Origin: Candidatus Eisenbacteria bacterium
GTDB taxonomy: Bacteria; Eisenbacteria; RBG-16-71-46; JAFGJU01
DNA length: 64,000 bases
Assembly (NCBI GenBank): GCA_026388185.1
Contig: JAPLKG010000006.1
Location: 3,625-67,624 of the forward strand
Direction: 5' to 3'
Positions 46,992 through 49,002 of the stretch are shown here, in pieces. Positions within the stretch are counted from its first letter, which is position 1, and every line of letters starts with the position of its first letter. The notes beneath the pieces are model-generated. The model saw only the letters and a program-made list of their open reading frames with translations, ran no database searches and was not told the DNA's origin. Position numbers and translations under genes: made by a program.

Positions 46992-47699
46992 ATGAGTATG
47001 TTTGCAAGGATTTTTCGGGAAAATGTCGGCATCAAGATTGCCGCGATAGTGCTTTCACTCCTCGTATTTTCCTACGTGAGAGCGCAGAAGGAAGGCGAGC
47101 TGACCTCCAGAGTGTCCGTCGAGCTGAAGGGCATTCCTGACTCGCTCGCGTGGACCGGAGAGGTGCCGAGCCAGGTGTCAGTCACGTTCAGCGGGAAGTT
47201 GAGAAACCTGATCGAGCTGAGGATTGCTCCACTTCGCATTCCCGTTGACCTTTCCCAGGCGGGGCCGGGGCGTTTTCAGCGCACGCTGTCCGCCGCCGAC
47301 GTGCCGCTGCCCGAAGTTTCAGGCGTCGTCGTGACACACTTCGCCGGGCCTGAGCGAATAGACATAGTGATAGAAAAGAGAATTTCGAAGGCGGTGCGCG
47401 TGATTCCCGTTCTGGTCGGGGACCTTGCGGAGGGTCTTGGTCTGACGGCGCAGCCCGTTGCACTTCCTGAGAGCGTGTCCGTGAACGGTGCAGCAAGCGT
47501 GGTGGCTTCTACTGACTCTCTTCTCACCGCGCCGATCGACGTCTCTCAGAAAAGACAGTCTTTCTCTACCAAGGTGAGGCTCGACCTTCAAGGCAAGGCT
47601 CTCAAGTGTGACGCGCAGGTGGTGGAGGTCTACGTCGAAGTCGGCGCCGAGAGCCTCGGTGTGGTTGGAGAGGTTCCAGAACCCGGTTCGCAGCGTTGA
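46992..47699 (+). CDS. YbbR-domain protein
   Basis: The 235-residue product has one N-terminal membrane anchor (about 11-29) and two or three YbbR repeats (e.g. LTSRVSVELKGIPDSLAW, PSQVSVTFSGKLRNLIELR). YbbR (CdaR) proteins regulate c-di-AMP cyclase DacA in Firmicutes; no cyclase gene is visible here. The frame is open from GTG 46947, which overlaps the lpdA stop (GTGA), but ATG 46992 gives the normal family N-terminus. Confidence 0.8.
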   Translation: MSMFARIFRENVGIKIAAIVLSLLVFSYVRAQKEGELTSRVSVELKGIPDSLAWTGEVPSQVSVTFSGKLRNLIELRIAPLRIPVDLSQAGPGRFQRTLSAADVPLPEVSGVVVTHFAGPERIDIVIEKRISKAVRVIPVLVGDLAEGLGLTAQPVALPESVSVNGAASVVASTDSLLTAPIDVSQKRQSFSTKVRLDLQGKALKCDAQVVEVYVEVGAESLGVVGEVPEPGSQR

Positions 47700-47827
47700 C
47701 GACGAAGAAGTGTCGTGGCCGGAAGTGTGTGATGAGAGTGCACGCGAAAAAAGTCCTTGACCACAGTTGCACGTGTAAGACAATGCCATCGGGGAAAAGT
47801 TGGAGGGCCGTCGCAGACAAAAGAATC

Positions 47828-47959
47828 GAGAGGAGCCCCACCAAGATCGTTCTACCTTCTGCCTCTGCTCTTCATTAAGGGCACGCCCGCGCGCGAACAA
47901 GGCTGAGCGTGAGGGAAGGAAAGTAACGAAGCAGGCAGGGACCTAACTCCGCTCCTCTC
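47828..47959 (-). ncRNA. structured RNA with 6S-like architecture
   Basis: On the minus strand a well-defined promoter is followed by four nested helices (plus-strand coordinates): 47951-47959 with 47828-47836 (9 perfect pairs), 47933-47938 with 47859-47864, 47924-47931 with 47870-47877, and 47905-47911 with 47882-47888. The closing stem begins exactly at the predicted transcript start. A large unpaired bubble (12 and 22 bases) separates it from the apical arm, as in 6S RNA, which mimics open promoter DNA and binds RNA polymerase. GATTCTTTTGTC follows the closing stem as a terminator tail. At about 132 bases it is short for 6S. The folding is seen; the family is inferred. The rest of the 47700-48074 gap holds only this RNA and its promoter. 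Confidence 0.55.
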
Positions 47960-47965
47960 ACATAC

Positions 47966-47995
47966 ATTATACCATGCCGTAAGGCCCGGAGTCAA
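47966..47995 (-). promoter_or_regulatory. strong minus-strand promoter of the structured RNA
   Basis: Minus-strand TTGACT (47990-47995) and TATAAT (47966-47971) are 18 bases apart. No minus-strand coding gene follows; the folded RNA does. Confidence 0.65.
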
Positions 47996-48074
47996 CGCTA
48001 TTAGCCGGGGGGCGTGAAGCCCGGACCGAGTCGTCAACAGAAGTTGCAGCATCGTAAAGGAGGACAGGGCAGAA

Positions 48075-48764
48075 ATGGAGATGAAGGACAACAACTCGAA
48101 GCCTTCTTCTATCGGCAATGCCGTTATCGGCAGTGCCGGAGCCAGGACGTTGACAGACTCACCAGCCATCAGCGCAATGCCGGAACCTCAAGTCGTCGAG
48201 ATTCCGGACAAGAGAGCGAGAATGGCTGTCGTTCCCTCGCGCATTTTCTTCACGAAGGGAGTAGGAACGCACCGTGAGGAACTTCAGTCGTTCGAGCTGG
48301 CCCTCAGGGACGCCGGCATTGAGAAACTGAACCTCGTGCGCGTTTCCAGCATCTATCCACCCAATTGCAGGATAGTCCCAAGGAACGAGGGTCTCAAGGA
48401 GATAGTCCCGGGCATGATTGCGTATTGCGTCATGAGCAGCCTGAGCAGCAACGAGCCCCACAGGCTTATTGCGTCATCCATAGGTTGCGCCGTTCCCGCC
48501 GACAAGAGCGCCTACGGTTATCTCAGCGAACATCATGCCTTCGGACAAACCGACGAAGTGGCCGGAGAGTACGCCGAAGACCTCGCTGCCTCCATGCTCG
48601 CCACCACACTCGGAATAGAGTTCGACGAAAACAAGAACTGGGACGAGAAAAAGGAAGTGTTCAAGATAAGCGACCTTATCGTTAAGACGACGCACATTGC
48701 CCAATCCACAATCATTACCAAGTGTTGTTCAACAGTCATTGCGGCCGCAGTGTTCCTAGATTAG
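48075..48764 (+). CDS. pyruvoyl-dependent arginine decarboxylase
   Basis: The 229-residue proenzyme self-cleaves at a serine to create the pyruvoyl cofactor; the site is in [50 protein letters not shown] and the C-terminal Ala-rich strand also fit. It makes agmatine for polyamines. The core starts near residue 50, and the first 45 residues are an extension of low complexity; the start at ATG 48075 is well supported by AAGGAGG, so the extension is probably real. Confidence 0.92.
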
Positions 48765-48798
48765 TAAGTTGATACTTGCCGTAACCGGGGGTGAGTTC

Positions 48799-49002
48799 AT
48801 GCCAAAAGCCAAGACCTTGTGGTGCCCGTTCTACAGAGGGCTGTGCGAAGATGGTTGGGTGGAGGTGCCGACGCCGGAAGGCGATTCGACGCGGGTGGTC
48901 TGCGCCTGCTATCACGAAGCCGAGAAAAGGTGCAAGCTGGTAATGATGGAATACGACCTGTTCAACATCGCGAGGGCACTCGACGTGATGACAAACAAGT
49001 GA
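48799..49002 (+). CDS. small Cys-rich protein
   Basis: The 67-residue protein has Cys 9, 15, 34, 36 and 44 in WCPFYRGLC and VCACYHEAEKRC, suggesting a zinc or iron-sulfur site. No family recognised. Strong GGGGGTGA ribosome site. It lies 34 bases after the arginine decarboxylase gene, so it may be co-transcribed. Confidence 0.65.
   Translation: MPKAKTLWCPFYRGLCEDGWVEVPTPEGDSTRVVCACYHEAEKRCKLVMMEYDLFNIARALDVMTNK

Follow-up and report, generated by a model that had tools for sequence, protein, structure and literature searches.

The closest described system is 6S RNA (SsrS, RF00013), which forms a rod by pairing of its 5′ and 3′ ends, and in which an open bubble is central to the mode of action. 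Few RNAs are known to bind RNA polymerase, namely 6S, Ms1 and a few recent RIP-seq finds (PMC11077062). Bacillus possesses two 6S RNAs of ~200 nt each, 6S-1 and 6S-2 (PMC7726162, PMC11077062). The 6S-1 RNA of B. subtilis functions in vitro when cut to 78–82 nt with its central bubble kept, and in other bacteria the far end stem has been reported not to be needed for binding of the polymerase (PMC8876501). In Actinobacteria, Ms1 is a diverged 6S-related RNA that has retained a connection with the polymerase and binds the core enzyme (PMC9130861). GlmY and GlmZ are two structured sRNAs acting via one protein, RapZ, and the glmY promoter is sigma54-dependent (PMC7073468, PMC6075780).

Here, we describe a small RNA gene located in a 64,000-nucleotide stretch of a Candidatus Eisenbacteria genome (hereafter the window), together with its relatives in the phylum, which, as judged from their sequences, form a so far undescribed family of short RNAs related to 6S, with four classes, A to D. 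No description of the family was found in Rfam or in the literature searched. Like 6S, these RNAs are rods made by end pairing, and they share with the 6S of this phylum the stem UCCCUGCC/GGYGGGGA with its U·G wobble, classes C and D also having CGUG/CACACGG-type ends. Unlike 6S, they measure about 125–141 nt as against ~183 nt, have a reduced terminal arm, occur in addition to a canonical 6S RNA and show three sigma promoter types across the classes, and no large bubble is supported in classes A and B. As in Bacillus, more than one 6S-type RNA is present per genome, but the Eisenbacteria extras are short and fall into promoter classes of different sigma types. Ms1 is from another phylum and binds core polymerase, and the parallel with GlmY/GlmZ is an analogy only.

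The minus-strand RNA gene between ybbR and pdaD

The gene occupies the minus strand of the gap bordered by the end of ybbR (47699) and the start of pdaD (48075), the products of which match PF07949 and PF01862 (pyruvoyl-dependent arginine decarboxylase), respectively. Its features are as follows.

47990–47995, minus strand: -35 element TTGACT, from the promoter scan; TTGAC is retained in genomes G002, G003 and G004
47966–47971, minus strand: -10 element TATAAT, after an 18-nt spacer; TATAAT in G002, TAGAAT in G003
47819–47959, minus strand: class A RNA gene of ~141 nt, from the conserved block and covariance model matches, with ends inferred from promoter and terminator
47942–47959, minus strand: 5′ leader GAGAGGAGCGGAGUUAGG with conserved AGCGGAG, from sequence comparison
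47934–47941, minus strand: 5′ strand of closing stem P1, UCCCUGCC, as in the 6S closing stem most frequent in the phylum
47926–47929, minus strand: 5′ strand of helix P1′, UCGU, pairing with ACGA at 47850–47847
47901–47908, minus strand: class A motif GCUCAGCC, invariant in the four class A members
47847–47850, minus strand: 3′ strand of helix P1′, ACGA, the partner of UCGU
47836–47842, minus strand: 3′ strand of P1, GGUGGGG, containing the U·G wobble
47828–47836, minus strand: 3′ strand of the outer end stem, GCUCCUCUC, pairing with GAGAGGAGC
47819–47827, minus strand: terminator tail GATTCTTTT, T-rich in all class A members

The signal for an RNA at this position comes from conservation. The predicted fold, a long rod with small loops at -54 to -56 kcal/mol, is unremarkable in energy alone (z -1.3 to -1.8). 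A syntenic copy is present in G002 (CP070702.1), a Candidatus Eisenbacteria genome of the same family and another genus (BLAST E 3.8e-31). Identity between the two RNAs is 81–83% (83% over 47959–47828), as against 46% upstream and 36% downstream, and 68% and 61% for the genes on either side. The G002 copy retains TTGAC, TATAAT and the spacing to +1, and conservation stops at the tail. Indels relative to this copy are not multiples of three, and hence, the region is noncoding, in agreement with the initial annotation, which had placed no coding gene in the gap. In a third genome of the family (G001), a draft of 88% completeness, neither a class A RNA nor the decarboxylase gene was found.

A strong minus-strand promoter had also been proposed, and TTGACT-N18-TATAAT bears this out, with 11/12 promoter matches and the top score among 3 hits in 2 kb, compared with 0.4 in shuffles. 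The predicted +1 is G47959, 7 bases past TATAAT. Here the 9-bp outer end stem GAGAGGAGC/GCUCCUCUC opens, with GAUUCUUUUG directly downstream of its 3′ strand, so that the closing stem beginning at the predicted start and the T-rich tail are both found as first described. The first 9 nt of the leader pair with the 3′ end only in the genus of the window and in G002. Judged by conservation and promoter, the feature is a genuine standalone minus-strand RNA gene. Beyond pdaD, the window holds a 76-aa cysteine-containing ORF (48772–48999), which is conserved in G002 and has no Pfam match.

A family of short RNAs and its relation to 6S

The sample comprised 47 Candidatus Eisenbacteria genomes, that of the window being G000. 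A covariance model built on the window and G002 sequences (R1) found a copy in G003 (30.9 bits), beside ccdA and with its own promoter and T-run; a model of three sequences (R2) found a fourth copy in G004, beside ybbR (45.6 bits). These four constitute class A. R2 also detected second copies, both in G002 and in the genome of the window itself (G000:C11). The pattern TTCCCTRCC-N72..102-GGYRGGGAA yielded 13 members in the 47 genomes versus 2 for the reversed control, and the looser GTTCCCT-N70..100-GGGGAACTT yielded 33 matches versus 0. A model of 13 sequences in a structural alignment made by hand (R3) gave matches in 22/47 genomes at E <= 0.5, the weakest of them near noise. A scan of 84,980 species, run with the class B hallmark only, returned Candidatus Eisenbacteria only, plus two coding-like matches. 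Loci L048, L053, L055 and L097 were rejected as chance matches in a coding-like context. Another locus, L101 (G004:C315:14228-14320), is RNA-like and has the same closing stem, but falls outside all four promoter classes.

Members share a plan of unpaired leader (AGCGNAGCGGAG-like in A and B), closing helix P1 (UUCCCUGCC/GGYGGGGAA), P1′, a small bulge, and P2, P3 and P4, with a U-run immediately after P1; the closing stem common to A–D also serves as terminator. In the 13-sequence alignment, 93.7% of cells are paired, compared with 73.3% in shuffled and 38–56% in slid versions, and both sides have changed in 19/27 pairs, values which lean towards the structure because the sequences were fitted to it by hand, with loops padded or trimmed to equal length. 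Long rods are likewise obtained from plain MAFFT alignments made within classes, each having 1–5 double-change pairs and few pairs that are broken. The large central bubble attributed to the locus at the outset was not recovered: the predicted folds of the window RNA are rods with small loops and have no large single-stranded central bubble, and the would-be bubble region is taken up by the helices P1′ and P2, which covary in the hand-fitted alignment (double changes in 4/4 pairs of P1′).

Canonical 6S RNA was found in 38/47 genomes, including that of the window (72.7 bits, ~183 nt). One genome (G024; L138, L144) has two Rfam 6S matches, both above the cut-off, and G004 has a second one just under it (G004:C370, L143; 45.7 bits). 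Against Rfam 15 (4227 models), classes A, B and D match no family, and the sole match is a weak one between class C and 6S (26.3 and 34.1 bits in G008 and G028, versus a cut-off of 46.4); the covariance search against other RNA families proposed in the initial annotation gave no other family for this locus. The 6S-like reading itself stands in part. A standalone RNA gene does carry the 6S closing-stem signature of the phylum, formed as in RF00013 from the 5′ and 3′ ends, and the motif GCUCAGCC sits near the position of the 6S GAGCC motif. It is not a canonical 6S, however: positions 47600–48300 give no Rfam 6S match even at E<=10, the RNA scores below the RF00013 gathering cut-off, no open central bubble is supported, and its ~141 nt compare with ~183 nt for the bona fide 6S of the same genome and with the ~180–200 nt, including an apical arm, of 6S RNAs.

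The stem UCCCUGCC/GGCGGGGA is the most frequent one both among the closing stems of 6S and in class B, and the window has UCCCUGCC/GGUGGGG; the U·G wobble occurs in 24/27 of the 6S RNAs read and in 39/39 members of A–D. Stem identity in C and D is in part a product of selection, since most members were fetched by the stem pattern, whereas the copies of the window, G002 and G003 had been detected independently of this pattern. When the stem was set aside and the flanks were compared with the 6S of the phylum by anchored profile scoring, class C resembled 6S on both sides (mean z 4.1) and class D on the 3′ side (z 5.4), while A and B were no closer to 6S than shuffles (mean z 0.1 to 0.9). The A/B-based R3 misses canonical 6S loci (best 8.8 bits), and R2 has no useful hits there either. 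The case for kinship with 6S thus appears good for class C and fair for class D, and for A and B it would follow from the closing stem and the links within the A–D family.

Candidate modes of action

What the sequences establish is the conservation, the promoter, the structure, the family, the shared 6S-type stem and the presence of a canonical 6S in the same genome; a mode of action can be proposed more tentatively. The most economical reading, and a quite plausible one, is that the class A gene, which has a near-consensus housekeeping promoter and a self-terminating stem, encodes a short 6S relative that engages the partner of 6S. By keeping the 6S end helix, the RNA would engage this partner, most likely RNA polymerase, and because the apical arm is shortened and the bubble collapsed, it may be a modified form of polymerase-binding or competing RNA, perhaps a weaker or bubble-closed one. 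The activity of truncated 6S-1 in vitro speaks for this reading, and the dispensability reported for the far end stem (PMC8876501) speaks against it. Classical 6S action is disfavoured chiefly by the apparent collapse of the bubble in A and B.

Alternatively, the stem may be a stable scaffold from which the leader and class-specific loops pair with mRNAs in trans, the likeness to 6S being ancestral. This would suit the strong conservation of the inner sequences (GGGCUGAUCCCCCUAUCGCGAGCGAAGGAGUC hardly varies among six class C members from f8, nor does GCUCAGCC within A), the unpaired leader AGCGNAGCG of A and B, and the variety of sigma-type promoters, which is typical of regulatory RNAs; few bases, however, are accessible in long closed rods. 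Hfq (PF17209) and ProQ/FinO (PF04352) were each found in 0/47 genomes with control genomes positive, although short proteins can be missed, and as neither was detected, an sRNA of the usual chaperone-assisted kind is not favoured. On balance, we regard trans-acting regulation as rather unlikely, if deserving of attention. The near-invariant double-stranded sequence and the conserved U·G wobble common to 6S and A–D, as well as the several paralogues per genome with differing promoters (A, B, C and 6S in G000), might also be expected of a protein decoy comparable to GlmY for RapZ, in which the paralogues titrate a 6S-handling nuclease or an RNA-binding protein recognising the end stem. No candidate protein is known, though, and the wobble may reflect shared descent alone, which leaves the decoy an unlikely explanation.

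Since the RNA is directed towards ybbR, whose 3′ end it faces, and finishes in a terminator-like stem and tail, the locus might instead be a conserved terminator or antisense element curbing convergent read-through into ybbR. We consider this highly improbable, as the G003 copy adjoins ccdA and class B adjoins galE, and as an own promoter and a conserved 140-nt fold would be superfluous for a terminator. Several further candidates were rejected: a missing housekeeping RNA, 6S and SRP RNA sitting elsewhere in the genome; a riboswitch or leader, the genes downstream of class A and of most class B copies being convergent; a CsrA sponge, GGA being unconserved in class B leaders; and a phage origin, phages having given no match. 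A leader role is possible for class C only, owing to the co-directional OPT or BMC genes downstream.

Promoter types and gene neighbourhoods of the four classes

Promoter types were sought within 120 bases upstream, and the counts are not independent events, since the members of each class are related. A sigma70-type TTGAC-N16..19-TANNNT is predicted for 4/4 class A and 15/18 class B members, the remaining three class B members having TTGACA and a different -10; a sigma54-type YGGCAY-N5-TTGC is predicted for 10/11 members of class C, and an ECF-type GGAACTT-N-GTCTAA for 5/5 of class D, which comes from family f4. For class B, those loci outside f4 that were examined adjoin galE, and the RNA often faces a response-regulator gene together with an H1-like one. 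In f1, class C precedes a gene for an OPT transporter; in loci of f8 and f11, it precedes microcompartment genes.

Through classes C and D, with their sigma54- and ECF-type promoters, a similar RNA would come under other sigma factors. A doubtful extension is that short 6S-type RNAs serve the housekeeping, sigma54 and ECF systems, each of which would transcribe its own polymerase-binding RNA; if true, such per-sigma RNAs would constitute a new layer of sigma-factor competition. Having short 6S-related paralogues, varied sigma promoters and no detected Hfq or ProQ, the phylum offers a direct test of sigma-specialised 6S-type RNAs. The family, absent from Rfam, can now be annotated from its sequences.

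The genome of the window contains a class C copy (G000:C2:159325-159452; L090:1501-1628, minus strand) upstream of an OPT transporter gene, with a predicted sigma54-type promoter, TGGCATGCCAATTGC. In the class C members of family f8 (L103–L107, L076), the inner 30 bases are almost invariant, the sigma54-type site lies 50–100 bases upstream of the stem and, in L105 at the least, the downstream side has a gene for a BMC shell protein. In the class D loci L118–L121 and L115, the ECF-type site is accompanied by a conserved TTGAC-N-TATAAT promoter, which lies ~85 bases upstream of the stem, and tRNA genes lie near three of these loci.
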